NCBI GenBank assembly: GCA_002878375.1
Contig: NIRF01000017.1
Coordinates: 1-30,838 of the forward strand
Source: Dictyoglomus sp. NZ13-RE01
GTDB taxonomy: Bacteria; Dictyoglomota; Dictyoglomia; Dictyoglomales; Dictyoglomaceae
DNA length: 30,838 nt
Direction: 5' to 3'
In this document: positions 1-30,838 of the stretch, piece by piece
Position numbering within the stretch: position 1 is the first letter of the stretch
How the letters are laid out: every line of letters starts with the position of its first letter
Program-made: the position numbers and the translations under genes
The notes under the pieces: model-generated
Database searches by the model: none
What the model saw: only the letters and a program-made list of their open reading frames with translations
Told to the model about the DNA's origin: nothing

Positions 1-217
1 TATTTATGGGAGCATTGTTAGTTATTTACTTAACATCAAAAATAGAGAAGGGAGAGCATAGAATAAAGTTATTAAAAGAGGAATTAAAGAGAGGAATAAT
101 AAGCTTCATAAATTTTGCCTTAAGAATAATTGAGATATTAAGATTGAGGTTAAAGATAAGCAAGAAAGGAAGAATTGTGCTTATGATTGGGGGTGATTAA
201 AAATGATTACAGATCAG
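1..217 (+). mobile_element. Right end of insertion sequence IS-C (3' part of transposase plus terminal repeat)
   Basis: The reading frame is open from the window edge and stops at 198-200. The visible 3' part encodes about 64 residues rich in Lys, Arg, Leu and Ile, with no motif I can assign. Directly after the stop, 201-217 (AAATGATTACAGATCAG) is the inverted complement of the left end of the element that begins at 30621 (CTGACCTGTAATCAG), with two mismatches near the tip. This pairing of ends is what identifies it as an IS. I infer that the coding part is the transposase C-terminus; the family cannot be named from this piece. The target duplication cannot be seen because the left end lies outside the window. 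Confidence 0.7.
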
Positions 218-6862: not shown

Positions 6863-6929
6863 GGCAAATAGGTATGGACATAGGTACCAGTATAGTAATA
6901 ATAGTAGTAATGAGGTAGAGGAGAAAGGA

Positions 6930-7055
6930 ATGGAGAAAGATAAAAAGATAGAAAGAATTGAGGCTGCACTCCTTCTTCTTGGTATAATTAAGAAATTAAG
7001 GCTCCCTTTCTTTAGAAAACTTAATCCTTTCCAAGAAGGAGGGTGCAGCCTATGA
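6930..7055 (+). CDS. 41-residue leader ORF of IS-A
   Basis: The ATG at 6930 follows GAGGAGA. The product is basic with a Leu-rich middle and no known domain. Its stop TGA overlaps the transposase start as ATGA (7052-7055). The ORF runs through the long hairpin at 6962-7050, so a ribosome translating it would melt the hairpin and free the transposase ribosome site. I infer a translational-coupling leader rather than a protein with its own role. It could also be a vestigial first ORF of a two-ORF element. Confidence 0.45.
   Translation: MEKDKKIERIEAALLLLGIIKKLRLPFFRKLNPFQEGGCSL
6962..7050 (+). promoter_or_regulatory. Long hairpin that hides the IS-A transposase ribosome site
   Basis: The arm 6962-6982 pairs with 7031-7050: 20 base pairs with one bulged T (6970) and one G-U pair. 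An inner pairing ATTAAG (6987-6992) with CTTAAT (7020-7025) extends it. The 3' arm contains AAGGAGGG (7036-7043), the ribosome site of the transposase start at 7052. In the folded RNA the site would be covered. Confidence 0.75.
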
Positions 7056-8412: not shown

Positions 8413-8551
8413 CGCACTTGGTATAGACATGATTGTCACCTGAAGGAATATAGACAAGTTTTTAGTAAACAAACCATAAAGAGAAAGAAGGCTTTTTATA
8501 TGATTACTACTATTGTTACTGTACTGGTACCTATGTCCATACCTATTTGCC
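8413..8551 (-). mobile_element. MITE derived from IS-A, copy 1 (about 139 bp)
   Basis: The left part (8413-8495) matches the last about 75 bases of IS-A read backwards, including AGTAAACAAACCATAAAG. The right part (8503-8551) matches the first about 45 bases of IS-A read backwards, ending with the terminal repeat (CCATACCTATTTGCC at 8537-8551). The whole middle of the element is missing. It has no coding capacity of its own; a 60-codon open frame across it is accidental. No target duplication is visible. Confidence 0.85.
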
Positions 8552-15139: not shown

Positions 15140-16088
15140 TTAGTTATATTTATGGAAGGGCTGCGGAATAACATGGTATCCCCTTAGAGAAGATTCTAAT
15201 CTTTTTGAAAATAATTCGTCAAGAATCACAGGAGGAAAGTTAATTATAGATGGAGGAATTTCAGGATTTCTTTCCCTAATAATCTCCCAAGGAGTCTTGT
15301 TTTCTTTGTAGCTATTCTTCCTGATAGCATTAAACCAAAGAATATATGTATGTGCTTTTGAAAGTAACTCGGAAGGAGAATTAAATCTCTCCAGCTCATA
15401 AAACTCAACTTCTATTAGATTATGGACTGTTTCTACATCAGATTGGTATGTATGAGCAGAAGGTGGAATATTGATGTTGAATAAGAAGTTCTGCAAAAAG
15501 AGAAGAATAAGCAATGGAGAGTTCATAAGAGTAGGCAATAAATTGTAATCCACTCACTACATCTCGTGCTGTATATTGATACTTAGGGAGATAATTTTTG
15601 AACATCTGACAGAAATACCCTAGGATATCATCCAAATATTTTGTATCAACCTCTATCTGAGAGAAAAGAGGCCAATTCTTCTTTATCTCTCTTAAGTTTC
15701 TCTTTGTTTTGTGTTTTCTTCTTCTCTTCTTTAATAGACCATTCTCTTTCCAAATTTTTCTAAGAGCCTTTTCAGAGAGAGAAAGAGCAAAATCTCTTTT
15801 TAACCTTTTTGCTCCAAAAGAAGGGAATTCTTTTTTAAGTTTAATAGCTAAATCTTTTTGTTCTTGAGTGATATACCTTTTAGGATTTTTAGGAGCCTTA
15901 CTTTGGTCAATAAGACCAGAGATACCTTTTTCTTTCCATCTATTCAGCCATTTTCTAACTGTTTTAGGGGTAGTATTAAAAGCCTTAGCAGTAGGTTTGA
16001 TACCTTTTTCTAAGGCATACTGAACCATTTGATATCTTAGAGCTTTTTTATCAAAAGATATTCTCATTATGGTATAATAATTCCACAT
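15140..16088 (-). pseudogene. IS-B transposase, internal deletion and frame change
   Basis: A relative of the IS-A transposase (shared phrases DTKYL, LPKY, FIAYSYE). The first frame (16088-15438) gives the helix-turn-helix (PTAKAFNTTPKTVRKWLNRW), basic linker and first catalytic Asp (IEVDTKY). After LFAELLIQH the frame is wrong; the correct sequence resumes in another frame with INIPPSAHTYQSDVETVHNL, which holds the catalytic Glu region, and runs to 15140. The stretch with the second Asp (the DNG motif) is missing altogether, so the lesion is a deletion plus frameshift and the enzyme must be dead. Start 16088 lies in the hairpin and has AGGTG upstream; 16067 is an alternative. Confidence 0.85.
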
Positions 16089-16221
16089 GGCACCTGGACA
16101 CCTCTATCTTTATGGTATTTTGAATAAGAATACCATAAAAACATCCAGGTGCCATGTTCTTTTTTCACTCCTACTCTAATAACTTTAATATCCATTAGGG
16201 GGATACCATCTCCCTTCCGTG
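15163..16221 (-). mobile_element. Decayed insertion sequence IS-B
   Basis: The ends are imperfect inverted repeats: the left includes ATGGTATCCCCTTAG (15173-15187) and the right, read inward, ATGGTATCCCCCTAA. It contains a transposase pseudogene on the minus strand and a two-tier hairpin at 16085-16157 before the transposase start. The right end stops just before the -35 box of the downstream sugar operon. No target duplication is clear. Confidence 0.75.
16085..16157 (-). promoter_or_regulatory. Two-tier hairpin over the IS-B transposase start
   Basis: A perfect 14-bp stem (16085-16098 with 16144-16157) encloses a second perfect 11-bp stem (16109-16119 with 16129-16139). On the minus strand the outer stem covers the ATG at 16088 and the AGGTG ribosome site before it. 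The same kind of structure occurs in IS-A and IS-C. Confidence 0.7.
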
Positions 16222-16292: not shown

Positions 16293-17312
16293 ATGAGTAA
16301 AAAGTTGATCCTCTTAATCTTAGTCTCCCTAATTCTATCCCTCTTCATATTCCCAACCAACGCTCAAGCTCAAAAAGAAGTTGTTGTAGTTGTAAAAATT
16401 GCAGGTATCCCATGGTTTAACCGTATGGCAGAAGGTGTACAACAAGCTGGAAAAGAGCTCGGAATAAAAGCCTCACTAATAGGCCCCTCTACTGCGGATG
16501 CTGCACCACAGGTATCAATGGTTGAGGATTTAATTACTAGAGGTGTCGACGCTATTTGCGTGGTACCAACAGATGCAAAAGCACTAAAACCTACCTTCAA
16601 GAAAGCAAGGAGTAAAGGTATTGTTATTCTAACTCATGAATCACCTTTCGAAGTGGAAGATGTAGATTACGATATAGAGACAATAGATAGTGTTGCTTAC
16701 GGAAAGATGGCAATTAATGAAATAGTATTAAATCTTTCCAAACATTCTGGTGGAGTAAAATATACTGCTGATAATCCTGCAGGTTTCGTCATGTTTGTAG
16801 GAGGATTAACAGTCCCATTACATAACTTCTGGGCAGATGTAGCTTTGAACTATGTAAAAGAGAGTGTACCTTTCTTAAAAGAACTTACTCCAAGATTACC
16901 TGTCGCAGAAAGTGTGGAAGATTCCAGAAAAGCTGCATTAGATTTAATTAGAACATATGGGAATAAATTGAAGGCTATAATTGGATGGGGCAGTTTAGGA
17001 CCCCTTGGCGCAGCAAGGGCTGTAAGAGAGTTAGGTATGCAACATAAAGTAATTGTAGGAGGAAGTGCTATTCCATCGACTGCAGTTGATTATTTGAGAG
17101 ATGGATCTATGGATTGGGCTCAGCTTTGGGATCCTAAGGAGGCAGGTTACATGATGGTATATATTGCAAAATTAATGATGGATAAAAAACAAATTGTTTC
17201 TGGATTAGAAATTCCAAATTTAGGTCCTATCAAGGTAGATGGAAAGGTTATTAGTGTAAATAGAATTAAATTAATGAGAACAGCTACTGATGCTAAGAAG
17301 TTAGGATTCTAA
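16293..17312 (+). CDS. Sugar-binding protein, RbsB/LsrB type
   Basis: Periplasmic binding protein (family 4 type) of a CUT2 sugar importer; 339 residues. A signal peptide ends near TNAQA-QKE with no lipobox Cys. The mature start KIAGIPWFNRMAEGVQQAGK and the phrase LITRGVDAICVVPTDAKALK, with ILTHESP, place it in the group holding LsrB (autoinducer-2) and RhaS (rhamnose) proteins. The ligand cannot be settled by eye. AGGAGGCG lies before the ATG. It is the first gene of a four-gene operon in the order binding protein, ATPase, permease, permease. Confidence 0.88.
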   Translation: MSKKLILLILVSLILSLFIFPTNAQAQKEVVVVVKIAGIPWFNRMAEGVQQAGKELGIKASLIGPSTADAAPQVSMVEDLITRGVDAICVVPTDAKALKPTFKKARSKGIVILTHESPFEVEDVDYDIETIDSVAYGKMAINEIVLNLSKHSGGVKYTADNPAGFVMFVGGLTVPLHNFWADVALNYVKESVPFLKELTPRLPVAESVEDSRKAALDLIRTYGNKLKAIIGWGSLGPLGAARAVRELGMQHKVIVGGSAIPSTAVDYLRDGSMDWAQLWDPKEAGYMMVYIAKLMMDKKQIVSGLEIPNLGPIKVDGKVISVNRIKLMRTATDAKKLGF

Positions 17313-17340
17313 GTGTATAGTTTATAATTATCTAATACTT

Positions 17341-17367
17341 TTGGGATGGGGGTTCTCCCCATCCCAA
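17341..17367 (+). terminator. Hairpin between binding-protein and ATPase genes
   Basis: An 11-bp perfect stem (17341-17351 with 17357-17367), loop of five, followed by only a short T-poor tract. In this position such hairpins usually protect the upstream mRNA and reduce read-through, so that more binding protein than ATPase is made. Confidence 0.65.
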
Positions 17368-17388
17368 TTAATTCCAGGAGGAGATAAA

Positions 17389-18900
17389 GTGAATGAAACT
17401 TTTTTGGAAGTAAAAAATATAAATAAGAGCTACGGTGGAGTTATTGCTCTTTCCAATGTAGATCTTGATATTAAAAAAGGTGAGATCCACTGCTTAGTAG
17501 GAGAAAATGGCTCTGGAAAAAGTACGCTTGTAAAAATTATTACTGGTGTGGTAGAACCTGAATTAGGCGGGGAAATAATTATTGAAGGAGTAAAATTTTC
17601 TAAGCTTACACCTCTTGAAGCATTTAAAAGAGGTATTCAAGTAGTTCATCAAGATTTCTCTCTTTTTCCTAACTTATCAGTAGCAGAAAATATATCAATA
17701 GCTCAATATATAAAACACTCGAAGGTTATTCATTGGAATAGAATGAAAAAAATTGCAAAAGAGACTCTGGATAAATTAGAAATAAATCTTCCCATAGATG
17801 CCCTTGTAGGCTCATTGCCAATTGCTGAACAACAGTTAATTGCTATTTGTAGAGCTTTAGCCAGTGAAGCCAAATTAATCATAATGGACGAACCTACTTC
17901 TTCTTTAACAAGAGAGGAAGTAATACATTTATTCAACATCTTAAGAACTTTGAAAGAAAAGGGAATTTCTATTTTATTTATTAGTCATAAATTAGATGAA
18001 ATTTTGGAAATTGGAGAAAGAATTACAATATTAAGAGATGGAAAGAAAATAGCTACGATAAATATAAATGAGGCTAGTAAACAGAAATTAACATATCTGA
18101 TGACAGGGAAAGAAATCTTTTATCAAAAATATTTTTATAAACCTAATAATAAAGAAATTGTATTAGAAGTTAAAAATTTGTCTAAAAAGGGACAATATAA
18201 GAATATCAGTTTTAAACTTTATAAAGGGGAAGTATTAGGAATAGTAGGTCCATTAGGCTCAGGAAAAACCGAACTTGCCCTTTCTCTTTTTGGTATGAAT
18301 CCTCCTAACAGTGGAGAGATTTACATAAAGGGGAAATTTGTAGAGTTAAAGTCAAACATAGACGCAATAAATCAAGGAATAGGATATATTCCTGAGGATA
18401 GACTAAATCAGGGATTAGTTTTAAACCAATCCATAGAAAACAATATTTCTATTACTATTCTAAAGAAACTATTAAATCGCCTTAAATTGATAGACTCTTT
18501 AAGAAAAAAGGAAATAACAAAAGAAGCTATAAGGAAATTCAATATTAAAACCCCATCAATCAAAATTCCAGTTAAAAATCTTTCCGGAGGAAATCAACAA
18601 AAAGTTGTTATTGCTAAGTGGTTCTTGATTCAGCCTCAAATTCTTATTATGGATAGCCCTACCATAGGAATAGATGTCTTAGCTAAGAATAGTATTTATG
18701 AAACTATTAGGGAACTAGCTTCTCATGGTGTTAGTATAATACTTATTTCTGAAGAGATTCCAGAGGTTCTTAATAACTGTAATCGTATTTTAGTTATGAG
18801 AAAAGGGAAGATTATGGGAGAATTTTTGAGTGAAAAGATGACTGAAGAAGAGTTATATCAAAAAGTCTGGAGTAAGGAAATAGAGGTAAGTATATCATGA
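17389..18900 (+). CDS. Sugar ABC transporter ATPase, two-domain RbsA type
   Basis: A 503-residue protein with two fused ATPase domains that powers the CUT2 importer. Domain 1: Walker A GENGSGKST, signature region LPIAEQQLIAICRAL, Walker B LIIMDEPTSSL, switch His in FISHKLDE. Domain 2: GPLGSGKTE, signature LSGGNQQKVVIAKW, and Walker B LIMDSPTIGID. In domain 2 the catalytic Glu is replaced by Ser, so that site is probably weak or inactive, a kind of asymmetry known in this subfamily. The GTG start at 17389 is set by AGGAGG (17376-17381); an upstream in-frame TTG at 17341 lies in the hairpin and is not credible. The stop overlaps the next ATG. Confidence 0.9.
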   Translation: MNETFLEVKNINKSYGGVIALSNVDLDIKKGEIHCLVGENGSGKSTLVKIITGVVEPELGGEIIIEGVKFSKLTPLEAFKRGIQVVHQDFSLFPNLSVAENISIAQYIKHSKVIHWNRMKKIAKETLDKLEINLPIDALVGSLPIAEQQLIAICRALASEAKLIIMDEPTSSLTREEVIHLFNILRTLKEKGISILFISHKLDEILEIGERITILRDGKKIATININEASKQKLTYLMTGKEIFYQKYFYKPNNKEIVLEVKNLSKKGQYKNISFKLYKGEVLGIVGPLGSGKTELALSLFGMNPPNSGEIYIKGKFVELKSNIDAINQGIGYIPEDRLNQGLVLNQSIENNISITILKKLLNRLKLIDSLRKKEITKEAIRKFNIKTPSIKIPVKNLSGGNQQKVVIAKWFLIQPQILIMDSPTIGIDVLAKNSIYETIRELASHGVSIILISEEIPEVLNNCNRILVMRKGKIMGEFLSEKMTEEELYQKVWSKEIEVSIS

Positions 18901-19907
18901 TGAAAATTTCTAATTTAAAATTTTTAAATAGACAGGAGTTTTATATACTTTTAGTCCTTATTATTTTATCTTTGATTTTAGCATTGGTAAATCCTACTTT
19001 TTTAACTCTTGACAATATTTTTGATTTATTGAGAAATAATGCCTTTTTAGGAATTTTAGCCCTTGGTGAATTAGTAGTTTTAATATCAGGAGGTATAGAT
19101 GTTTCTTTTACTGCAATCACTACTGTAGCTCAATATATAATGGGGTTAATTATTACTAGTTATTACGTGAATAATATCTTTCTTACTTTTTTAATCCCTA
19201 TTCCTATAGGAGTAATTTTGGGTTTAATTAATGCAGTTTTAATTTATATAACCAAGGTCCATCCTGTGATTATTACAATAGCTACATTGAATATTTTTTA
19301 TGGACTTTTAATATTTTTTACGGGTGGAAAATGGATGTACTCCTTCCCCCCATCTTTCACAGATTTTGCTTATGTAAAGGTATTCCAAATCGCAACTCCA
19401 TATAGTGTTACAGGACTTTCTATTTTTACTCTTTTCTGGATAATTCTTGCTATATTCACATGGTTTATTCTGAAATATCTTCCTATTGGTAGAAAGATCT
19501 ATGCTATAGGAGGAAATTTGGAGGCTGCAAGAAGAGTAGGATTTAACATATTTCGCATTCAGCTTTTTGTTTACGGATATATGGGATTTTTATCAGGAAT
19601 TGCTGCTTTTGTACATGCTCAATTAGGACAAATCATTCAGCCAAACGCAATAGTAGGGCAAGAATTAGATGTTATTGCAGCAGTAATATTAGGAGGAGCA
19701 AGTATATCAGGAGGTGTAGGAAGCGTTCTGGGAACAATATTAGGAGTTTTATTATTTGCAGTTATTAAAAACGGTCTTATTCTTATGAAACTGCCCTCCT
19801 ATTGGCATCAGGTAGTTGTAGGATTAATTATAGCTATAGCTGCGAGTTTTGCTACTTATCAATCTAAACTTAGAGGGAAGAGGATGGTGAAGATTGATGT
19901 TGAATAG
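18897..19907 (+). CDS. Sugar ABC transporter permease 1, RbsC/LsrC type
   Basis: A 336-residue permease with about nine hydrophobic segments. Family phrases are present: LGELVVLISGGIDVSF, YAIGGNLEAARRVGFN and ILGGASISGGVGSVLGT. Two adjacent ATG codons (18897, 18900) overlap the ATPase stop, so translation is coupled. Looks intact. Confidence 0.9.
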   Translation: MMKISNLKFLNRQEFYILLVLIILSLILALVNPTFLTLDNIFDLLRNNAFLGILALGELVVLISGGIDVSFTAITTVAQYIMGLIITSYYVNNIFLTFLIPIPIGVILGLINAVLIYITKVHPVIITIATLNIFYGLLIFFTGGKWMYSFPPSFTDFAYVKVFQIATPYSVTGLSIFTLFWIILAIFTWFILKYLPIGRKIYAIGGNLEAARRVGFNIFRIQLFVYGYMGFLSGIAAFVHAQLGQIIQPNAIVGQELDVIAAVILGGASISGGVGSVLGTILGVLLFAVIKNGLILMKLPSYWHQVVVGLIIAIAASFATYQSKLRGKRMVKIDVE

Positions 19908-20862
19908 TAAGCTTTCTCAACTTTATACAAGGAATCTTGAAATTGTTATCTTAACATTGATTTTGTCATTTCTTTTGGTTTCTATGACCCTTCTTACTGG
20001 AGGAAAATTTTTAAAACTTAATAGTTTGGAAGCAATGGCATTTCAAATGCCCCTTTTGGGCTTACTTACTTTAGCTCAATTAATTCCCATGTTAACAGGA
20101 GGTATTGATCTTTCGATAATATCTACAGCAAACTTATCAGGAATAATTACTGCTCTTATTCTAACTAATATAAAAGCTTGGTATAACGTCCCCTTAGCAA
20201 TTCTTTTAGGACTTTTTTCTGCTCTTCTTGTTGGAATCTTTAATGGTTTTATTATATCTTTTATTGAAGTTCCACCAATAATTGGTACTCTTGGAAGTAT
20301 GATCCTTATAAAGGGAATTTCTCTTGCAATAACTAAAGGCTATGTTATATCAGGATTTCCAGATAGTTTTCTTTTTATTGGCAATGGTTATATTTTAGGG
20401 GTTCCTGTTTCTTTCATTATTTTTATTCTTTTTTCTTTGCTTATGGCTCTTATATTATATAAAACTTCTTTTGGAATTTGTATCTATATGTTAGGATCAA
20501 ACCCATTGGCAACTTTATTTTCTGGAATTAATAATAAGTCACTTCTATTTAAAAGTTATTTAATTTCTTCCTTTCTTTCTGGAGTTGCTTCTTTAGTTAT
20601 GATTTCTCGCTTTAATGCAGCCCAAGCAGATTATGGAGGGTCTTTTCTTCTCCTTACAGTATTAATTTGTGTTTTGGGGGGGGTAAGCCCTTCAGGTGGT
20701 TTTGGAAGGGTTTTAGGAGTGTTTATTGCGGTAACTATACTTCAAATAGTTGGAACAGGATTTAATTTGTTAGGTCTCTCCTCTCATTTAAGTAATGCAT
20801 TGTGGGGTATAATATTGATATTAGTCATTATTTTAAACCGTTTTTACTCCAAAACTCGATAA
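19897..20862 (+). CDS. Sugar ABC transporter permease 2, RbsC/LsrD type
   Basis: A 321-residue permease, the partner of the preceding one. Family phrases: LIPMLTGGIDLSI, MLGSNPLATLFSGIN and CVLGGVSPSGGFGRVLG. The ATG at 19897 is preferred over the TTG at 19894; GAGGATGG lies upstream. It overlaps the first permease by 11 bases and ends the operon. Having two different permeases rather than a homodimer fits Lsr/Rha-type systems. Confidence 0.9.
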   Translation: MLNSKLSQLYTRNLEIVILTLILSFLLVSMTLLTGGKFLKLNSLEAMAFQMPLLGLLTLAQLIPMLTGGIDLSIISTANLSGIITALILTNIKAWYNVPLAILLGLFSALLVGIFNGFIISFIEVPPIIGTLGSMILIKGISLAITKGYVISGFPDSFLFIGNGYILGVPVSFIIFILFSLLMALILYKTSFGICIYMLGSNPLATLFSGINNKSLLFKSYLISSFLSGVASLVMISRFNAAQADYGGSFLLLTVLICVLGGVSPSGGFGRVLGVFIAVTILQIVGTGFNLLGLSSHLSNALWGIILILVIILNRFYSKTR

Positions 20863-20867
20863 AATTT

Positions 20868-20965
20868 ATGACTACACTTCTCACCTCCTAAGGTTGGATT
20901 GTTAGATATCTAACCTAAGTCTAACCTTAGGAGGTTTTTCTTTTCAAAAAATGATTACAGATCAG
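20868..20965 (-). mobile_element. Left-end remnant of IS-C that can serve as an operon terminator
   Basis: Read on the minus strand it matches the IS-C left end at 30621 over its full length: terminal repeat (CTGATCTGTAATCA), GAAAAGAAAAACCTCC, and the ribosome-site region with GTCAT of the transposase start. The start codon itself is altered and no coding sequence follows. The arms 20883-20895 and 20923-20935 (ACCTCCTAAGGTT / AACCTTAGGAGGT) form a perfect 13-bp stem. The loop contains the perfect palindrome GTTAGATATCTAAC (20901-20914). On the plus strand the stem runs into TTTTTCTTTT, a good Rho-independent terminator 20 bases after the permease stop. Confidence 0.85.
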
Positions 20966-21128: not shown

Positions 21129-21327
21129 ATGAGGATAAGCGCTTGTATAATCACTAAAAATGGAGGGGCTTCTTTAAATCCGGTGTATAAAAAAGTGTAA
21201 AACCCTTTGTAGATGAAATTGTAGTGGTAGATACAGGTTCTGAAGAGGGCAGTAAATTAAGAGAATTAGATGTATCCTCTTTATATCAAGGATTATCTTG
21301 GCATATAAATTATTGCAGTAGAAACCC
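21129..21327 (+). pseudogene. 5' remnant of a family 2 glycosyltransferase gene
   Basis: A start with a good ribosome site (AAGGGGG) gives MRISACIITKNGGASL, the beginning of a GT2 glycosyltransferase. After two frame changes (near 21178 and 21190) SVKPFVDEIVVVDTGSEEGS follows, the next conserved strand with its Asp. The remaining catalytic domain is missing. The next, intact glycosyltransferase starts at 21328. Confidence 0.7.
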
Positions 21328-28563: not shown

Positions 28564-29878
28564 ATGAAATGGGGTGTTAAAATGTTTCCCTTCCTTCGCA
28601 TATCCAAATTCACCCTTATTTTTATCCTAATTCTCCTTCTCTTTTGCTCAAATACTATGGAAGGCGCAGGAAATGTTTACTACGTATCTCCAAAGGGAAG
28701 CAATTCAAATCCTGGAACCCTTGAAAAACCTTGGGCAACTCCTGGCTATGTCTCAAAACAGCTTAAGCCTGGTGATACTCTCATCATTCTTGATGGAAAA
28801 TATGTTCTCTCAGAATACTATGAAGACATGATTACTCCTCCTTCTGGAACTGTTGATAAATGGATAACAATTAAGGGAGAAGCAGGTAAAAGAGTATAGA
28901 GATTTTAGGCTCTCAGGCAAGCCACATTATTCTTAAGGACCTATATATCCACCATATTGATGAGATGGGTATAGATGCGCAAGATGTAGACGATCTGCAG
29001 ATATTAAATTGTAGAATAGAGTACTGTGGTTTTGGAGCCATAGGAGGTCCTGGAGGGGGATATGGTGGTTTAAGGAATGTAGTAATAAGAGGATGTAGTC
29101 TATCCTATAGTGGGCACTACTATCAAGGTGGTGATGGTTCTAATAGACCCTATGACCGTCCTGATGGATTTGGGATTGAGCCCTCTGATGGACCAATTTT
29201 AATTGAGGATACAATTGTTGAGCATAACTATGGAGATGGGATAGATTCAAAGGCGAAAAATACAACTATTCGTCGTTGTATAGTAGCAAACAATTCTTGT
29301 GATGGAGTAAAGCTATGGGGAGAAAATAGCAAAGTAGAGAACACTTTAATTTATGGGAGAGGAGATGACAATTCTATAGTAACTCCATGGTCACCAATTG
29401 TAATTGATACAGAGACACCAAATGCCCTATTTGAAATAGTAAATGTTACTGTAGATGATGCTCTTGGAGCTAACTACCTTATGTATGTACAATACGATCA
29501 TGAAGATATACCAGTAAAATTAATTATAAAAAATACAATATTTTGTGGTAGAGGAGAAGATTCTCCTATATTTATAGGTTCTGCAAGTAGTTTTACTTTA
29601 GACCATAATCTTTTCTATCTTCCAAACAGTGCATTTGTACTAACTCATGGGAATAACACTTATGATTCTAATACTATTACTCAGGTTGGCAGTGGAAATA
29701 TTTATGGAGATCCTCTTTTTGTAAGTCCTGCTTGGGGGCAAGATGGAGATTATCACCTAAAAGCGCAAAGTCCTGCCATAGATAGAGGAACTTCTCAAGG
29801 AGCACCCTCCGAAGATCTTGAAAAAATCCTCGACCACAAGGGGCAGGTGTTGATATAGGAGCCTACGAATGTAAATGA
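28564..29878 (+). pseudogene. Secreted right-handed parallel beta-helix protein, two frameshifts
   Basis: A secreted protein of the pectate-lyase-like beta-helix class, probably a polysaccharide lyase or binding protein. A signal peptide (core FTLIFILILLLFC) is followed by YYVSPKGSNSNPGTLEKPWA, a typical start of such proteins, and by repeated coil motifs (DGIDSKAKNTTIRRCIVANN, CDGVKLWGENSKVENTLIYG). The first frame stops at 28897-28899; with one extra base near AAAA (28888-28891) it continues as IEILGSQASHIILKDLYIHH. The second frame runs to 29858, but after six A at 29821-29826 one extra A gives EKNPRPQGAGVDIGAYECK ending at 29878, the canonical end of this fold. Both lesions are one-base losses. 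The start may be 28564 or 28582; GGGGTG favours 28582. The rest is well kept, so the breaks look recent. Confidence 0.85.
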
Positions 29879-30559: not shown

Positions 30560-30650
30560 AGGAAAATACCCCCTTTTAAATTTTCTTTTCTAAGTATACA
30601 TCATGTAATCCTTTTTATCACTGACCTGTAATCAGTTTTTGAAAAGAAAA

Positions 30651-30705
30651 ACCTCCCAGGGTTAGAATTAGATTAGAAAGAGATAACATCCAAACCCCGG
30701 GAGGT
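30651..30705 (+). promoter_or_regulatory. Hairpin that hides the IS-C transposase ribosome site
   Basis: ACCTCCCAGGGTT (30651-30663) pairs with AACCCCGGGAGGT (30693-30705): 12 of 13 pairs. The 3' arm holds the ribosome site GGGAGGT for the ATG at 30713. In the remnant at 20883-20935 two of the pairs are changed on both sides (T-A to C-G and A-T to G-C), so pairing is conserved while sequence is not. Confidence 0.8.
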
Positions 30706-30712
30706 GAAAACT

Positions 30713-30838
30713 ATGGTCATTAATATTCTACCAGATTTTTCTTTAAGAAAAAAGATAAAAGAAATTTTAATTGTGTTAATAATGAGTTTAATAAAAGAGA
30801 AAAAACCATCAATTAGAGCTCTTTCTAAAAAAGCTTTA
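30713..30838 (+). CDS. IS-C transposase, first 42 codons
   Basis: The ATG at 30713 follows GGGAGGTGA at the right distance. The visible part (MVINILPDFSLRKKIKEILI, then VLIMSLIKEKKPSIRALSKK) shows no catalytic motif because the gene runs off the window. Its place inside a terminal-repeat element shows that it is a transposase; the family is open. Confidence 0.65.
   Translation, partial: MVINILPDFSLRKKIKEILIVLIMSLIKEKKPSIRALSKKAL

Follow-up and report, generated by a model that had tools for sequence, protein, structure and literature searches.

At the left end of the insertion sequence IS-C, comparison of related elements indicates that the base pairing of a hairpin close to the transposase start is under selection; the evidence for this comes from the relatives rather than from the two copies in the window (the entire contig C17 of genome G000, 30,838 nucleotides). 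The stem probably functions as a translation guard of this IS4-family element, in which RNA that reads through from outside would hide the transposase SD and RNA started within the loop would be translatable.

The IS-C left end and its relatives

IS-C is an IS4-family insertion sequence, because it has the YREK motif and target duplications of ~10 bp. The signature Y-(2)-R-(3)-E-(6)-K, which defines the family (PMC2266710), is present as YRERMKIEEMFRNEK in a transposase that was read as a composite from pieces of different copies; the right part of the frame is open over 198 codons and the N-terminal part is also open, although an intact copy is not contained end to end in any one contig. The transposase passes the cut-off for PF01609 (DDE_Tnp_1; 25.9 versus 23) and does not reach that for NF033591, an IS4-family profile set for one named equivalog group (78 bits versus 152). 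Ten target duplications common to left and right ends were found, 9-11 bp in length (10 bp in seven of the ten), and the ends of IS-C are CTG. The genome (1.93 Mb, 34 contigs) contains 13 identical left ends, every one at a contig end, and, further, three diverged left ends, the solo remnant and smaller fragments (Table 1).

Table 1. Positions of hairpins and associated features in the window
Feature	Position	Strand	Remarks
Right end of another IS-C copy	1..217	+	Left end of this copy opens contig C25; 11-bp common duplication TCCAAATATTA
IS-A hairpin, ~20 bp	6963-7054	+	GGCTGCACTCCTTCTTCTTGG / CCAAGAAGGAGGGTGCAGCC; covers transposase SD
IS-B nested hairpin	16088-16140	-	Over transposase start codon
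Solo left-end remnant of an IS-C relative	20861..20965	-	Start-codon region GTG TAG; no transposase follows
Remnant hairpin arms	20883-20895 and 20923-20935	.	ACCTCCTAAGGTT and AACCTTAGGAGGT; 13/13 pairs
Possible ABC-operon terminator	20883..20945	+	Remnant hairpin and TTTTTCTTTTC
Left terminal inverted repeat, live IS-C	30621..30639	+	CTGACCTGTAATCAGTTTT; right-end partner AAAAATGATTACAGATCAG; target duplications start directly outside
Candidate inner promoter, live IS-C	30639..30668	+	TTGAAA-18-TAGAAT; 10/12 matches, top score in region
Predicted antisense RNA, ~77 nt	30642..30718	-	Extended -10 TGGTAGAAT at 30733-30725; predicted start near 30718
U-rich end of the predicted antisense RNA, after its hairpin	~30650-30642	-	
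5' arm, live IS-C	30651..30663	+	ACCTCCCAGGGTT; within promoter spacer
Loop, live IS-C	30664..30692	+	Between arms
3' arm, live IS-C	30693..30705	+	AACCCCGGGAGGT; 12/13 pairs with 5' arm, A·C at pair 8; holds transposase SD GGGAGGT (30699-30705)
IS4-family transposase gene start	30713..30838	+	Runs off contig

The arms and the place of the SD are seen directly in the live copy, and the start point of the inner promoter, which we infer, is predicted to lie near 30675, inside the loop. Since the 3' arm holds the SD and the 5' arm lies within the inner promoter, read-through RNA should hide the SD, and the element's own mRNA should leave it free.

DNA and protein searches identified related elements in the sister genome G001 and, outside this lineage, in the two genomes SKW194 (G327/G389) and MAG-58 (G386/G387), which belong to another one. 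All keep the same order of terminal repeat, promoter-like site around the 5' arm, loop, 3' arm with GGAG(G) and start codon, and the candidate inner promoter spans the 5' arm in each family. The sister genome has the layout of the live copy, with the promoter TTGAAA-17-TAGAAT; in G389 and G387 an extended -10 (TGGTATACT and TGATATACT, respectively) is located in the loop instead. The stem types are ACCTCCCAGGGTT in G000, ACCTCCTAAGGTT in the remnant, GCCTCATTGGGATA in G001, CTCCTTTCTGGTTAG in G389 (15/15 pairs) and CTCCTTTCTGGCTGG in G387 (14/15 pairs). The sister genome also has two MITE-like, non-autonomous IS-C derivatives (L043 and L047), which have one common internal deletion, lie at different sites and lack the 3' arm. 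A DNA match in G011 and a protein match in G283 were rejected as unusable as left ends. No relatives were found in viral contigs by a transposase scan or in plasmids by tblastn; a search with the pattern of terminal repeat, stem and SD gave 28 viral matches, none resembling a relative on inspection, and among 386 genomes it returned only the known elements and one chance match.

Covariation in the stem

The arms that had been proposed from the sequence alone, and their coordinates, are exact in both copies. The remnant is in the opposite orientation to the live copy (inverted repeat I2), which is easily missed because the hairpin is a near-palindrome. Pair 7 is T-A in the remnant and C-G in the live copy, and pair 9 is A-T and G-C, respectively, with both sides changed and still paired; pair 8 differs on one side only. 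The two compensated double changes and the one lost pair described in the sequence-only reading are therefore borne out, the open pair being that of the live copy. That reading went on to hold that the changes are hard to explain by chance and prove that pairing is conserved. In a simulation in which two changes in one arm and three in the other were placed at random, at least two compensated doubles arose with a frequency between 0.7%, without transition bias, and 3.8%, when every change was a transition (as is the case here), which is rarer than typical chance but weak when derived from two copies; conservation of pairing does emerge, through the relatives, and "prove" is too strong a word for the pair of copies considered. 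A single template-switch event could also mimic both double changes, because they flank one column. No more than one of the doubles is compatible with the proposal that selection acted while the remnant was still mobile. The T-A at pair 7 of the remnant is also that of G001, implying that the C-G of the live copy is probably derived and that the change probably occurred in the live lineage, and at pair 9 it is the remnant that stands apart. On this comparison, each lineage probably accounts for one of the double changes.

Scoring of covariation among aligned left ends, the check that the sequence-only reading had suggested, supports selection on the pairing. In six in-register rows (four left-end types of G000, the remnant and G001), compensated changes are observed in 4/15 pairs, compared with a mean of 1.1 after shuffling (3/500 shuffles reach 4), and the covariation score is 0.204 versus 0.116 in shuffles (reached by 1/500). 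Pairing is present in 87.8% of cells, a figure that does not exceed 57% once the partner is shifted by one. An 11-row alignment was left out of the pair counts because the distant stems are one or two columns out of register; G389 compared with G387 gives one further compensated pair. One-sided changes as frequent as two-sided ones, which the sequence-only reading would have counted against itself, are found in the decayed G389-type copy L102, with five one-sided and zero double changes, which is what drift looks like. They are not clearly found in the live copies, although these do have stem mismatches (G000, pair 8; G001, pairs 6 and 12; G387, pair 12; several copies, pair 14). That the relatives keep the hairpin with different letters implies that the pairing itself matters. 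The covariation is evidence that selection holds stems that hide the transposase start over large distances, the transposases being 45-61% identical over the parts read.

These comparisons bear on two explanations that do without a selected RNA structure. It is highly improbable that the double changes arose without selection, whether by chance or by a single template-switch event of quasi-palindrome repair: although the simulated frequencies for two copies and the adjacency of the changed pairs 7-9 would allow it, further compensated pairs occur in both the sister genome and the distant lineage, the G389/G387 stem is wholly different yet complementary, and the dead copy has one-sided changes only. 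We give equally little credence to the inverted repeat being a DNA element, i.e. subterminal transposase binding sites, and not an RNA structure. Its position close to the terminal repeat, and the occurrence of DNA sites as inverted pairs, would be in keeping with such a role, but the families differ in letters with complementarity retained. Moreover, in G001, left ends with an identical deletion removing the 3' arm are located at different places (contigs C50 and C54); these copies have moved without the stem, which argues against the stem as a site that transposition requires.

Predicted folds and the choice between read-through and antisense RNA

In the proposed guard mechanism, RNA entering from a neighbouring gene would carry both arms and fold, such that the SD would be hidden and little transposase made, and RNA from the inner promoter would start in the loop without the 5' arm and be translatable. 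Selection would hold the arms complementary while their letters drift, and compensated changes would remain. Fold predictions were considered at 70 °C; the bacterium appears to belong to a Dictyoglomus lineage and is probably heat-loving, with a presumed growth temperature of ~70 °C. In read-through RNA the predicted SD-unpaired values are 0.006-0.03 (G000, remnant, G389 and G387), and in loop-started RNA they are 0.56-0.81; the values for IS-C are 0.01 for read-through RNA versus 0.65 for its own mRNA. The stem of G001, which has two mismatches, is predicted to hide the SD less well (0.33 in read-through RNA), and the lowest value among 24 other genes of the window is 0.23. The SD is thus predicted to sit in a stem that only transcripts entering from beyond the inner promoter can form, and from this we infer repression of translation in the cell. 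The weaker hiding in G001 weighs against the guard, and so does the fold of the sense RNA taken whole, which is only 1.7 sd (G000) and 1.3 sd (G001) better than that of shuffles.

The stem had been described as an RNA stem with the strand left open; conservation of pairing stands, and the mismatch pattern and stability lean towards the antisense strand. We nevertheless consider it somewhat unlikely that an RNA-OUT-like antisense RNA of ~77 nt, with the hairpin as its body and terminator, is the main reason why the pairing has been kept. A promoter inside the transposase gene would read outward, the loop would be complementary to the 5' end of the transposase mRNA, and this role may work together with that of hiding the start. 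The antisense hairpin is predicted to be more stable than the sense hairpin in 10/10 non-decayed copies folded, the remnant included, and for the live left end its z-score versus shuffles is -3.61, compared with -1.72 for sense. In-stem mismatches comprise four A·C in sense (G·U in antisense), one A·G and zero G·T in sense, a pattern that appears to count against the guard model and to point rather to antisense RNA, although four A·C to no G·T corresponds to p = 0.06 only. The same comparison of A·C with G·U mismatches offers a simple probe of whether selection acts on the read-through or on the antisense RNA. A T-rich tract lies beyond the antisense stem, but is weak in G387. An extended -10 is present on the antisense strand in 3/4 families, but these four are not independent, and synonymous shuffling produces such a box in 7-27% of cases. 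The RNA-OUT stem of IS10 likewise overlaps the transposase mRNA promoter (PMC5006887). The Rfam search returned nothing for IS-C, and in particular no RNA-OUT match either at the gathering score or at E up to 10. An IS10-like antisense RNA for IS-C is possible on these grounds.

The translation guard itself has precedents: a leader acting against read-through is a known type of self-restraint, of which IS-C is a new IS4-family example. PMC2965389 cites Davis et al., 1985, for read-through protection in IS10, and the same work together with Beuzon et al., 1999, for leaders that block translation of outside RNA. The left end of IS10 (Tn10), with pIN, pOUT and RNA-OUT, resembles that of IS-C in its IS4-family transposase, in an inverted repeat that spans both the promoter and the SD of the transposase, and in an antisense-strand RNA with a long stem-loop, which for IS-C is only predicted. 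In contrast, the Rfam search gives no sequence similarity, IS-C represents another lineage of the IS4 family, target duplications are 9 bp in IS10 and ~10 bp in IS-C, and the SD is weak in IS10 and strong in IS-C. In IS200 a leader stem-loop blocks access to the ribosome binding site, while impinging transcripts are countered by a hairpin (PMC3196728), similar to the hiding of the SD and read-through protection predicted for IS-C; however, IS200 has another transposase class and no inverted repeats, whereas in IS-C one hairpin covers both promoter and SD. The 5'-UTR of ISPpu9 buries the RBS, weakening of the structure raises a reporter 26-fold, and an antisense RNA lies over the leader (PMC8450116), features that are predicted for IS-C with respect to both the buried RBS and the antisense RNA. 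ISPpu9 is an IS of another kind, and its own long 5'-UTR folds, whereas the inner start of IS-C omits the 5' arm. The IS-C families provide an independent set of elements for testing the IS10 paradigm, and the genome is one where different ISs share the design.

The remnant, IS-A and IS-B

A sugar-ABC operon occupies 16293-20862; the remnant hairpin lies 20 nt past the stop codon of the operon's final gene, and the stem could have been kept after the death of the element as a host terminator. Whether the perfect stem was kept, or perfected, as the terminator of this operon is finely balanced, and we lean slightly against it. The hairpin followed by TTTTTCTTTTC is the only terminator-like site nearby on the + strand, no other fold tested has a z-score as strong as that of its + strand (-5.31), and at 70 °C the remnant hairpin is predicted to be the most stable of all copies. 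However, the U-rich flank of the live copies is nearly the same, and the U-rich tail of the remnant may therefore be inherited; the operon was looked for in the relatives and not found, and there is no orthologous locus for comparison. Exapted IS terminators, or "mobile attenuators" (PMC2965389), similarly consist of the hairpin of a dead IS beside a host gene; the remnant differs in that it is downstream of the operon, as a possible 3' terminator, and derives from the 5' end of an IS read backwards.

Two further ISs in the window, IS-A (transposase from ATG 7052) and IS-B (16088, minus strand), encode other transposases and have long hairpins over the transposase start. The 5' arm of the IS-A hairpin continues straight into TGGTATAAT, which suggests that IS-A RNA should also start in the loop. 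Among IS-A homologues in related genomes, 5/16 pairs show compensated changes; of 500 shuffles, 15 reach this count and 1 reaches the covariation score. As IS-A shows the same layout together with compensated changes, the layout probably arose more than once. A fuller scheme, in which one IS4-family inverted repeat served to hide the SD, to encode an IS10-like antisense RNA and later as a host terminator, with ISs of different transposases converging on the layout, is unlikely to hold in all its parts.

Several other features of the window were observed. The transposase gene of IS-B, which is divided between two frames (15140-15553 and 15438-16088), appears to be broken, and changes in the other IS-B copies of the genome are mostly one-sided. 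A 49-bp inverted repeat (GGCAAATAGGTATGGACATAGGTACCAG..., 6863-6911 and 8503-8551) probably represents the ends of IS-A; similar stretches flank IS-C insertions elsewhere (L014 and L117), suggesting that IS-C may often land near IS-A ends. An intact glycosyltransferase (21328) is immediately preceded, at 21129-21315 (+ strand), by what is left of the start of a decayed glycosyltransferase-like gene, and part of this region has an 86% match in a relative (G005). A gene for a secreted repeat-type protein (28564-29858, + strand) lies in two frames (28564-28899 and 28965-29858) and is possibly one broken gene.
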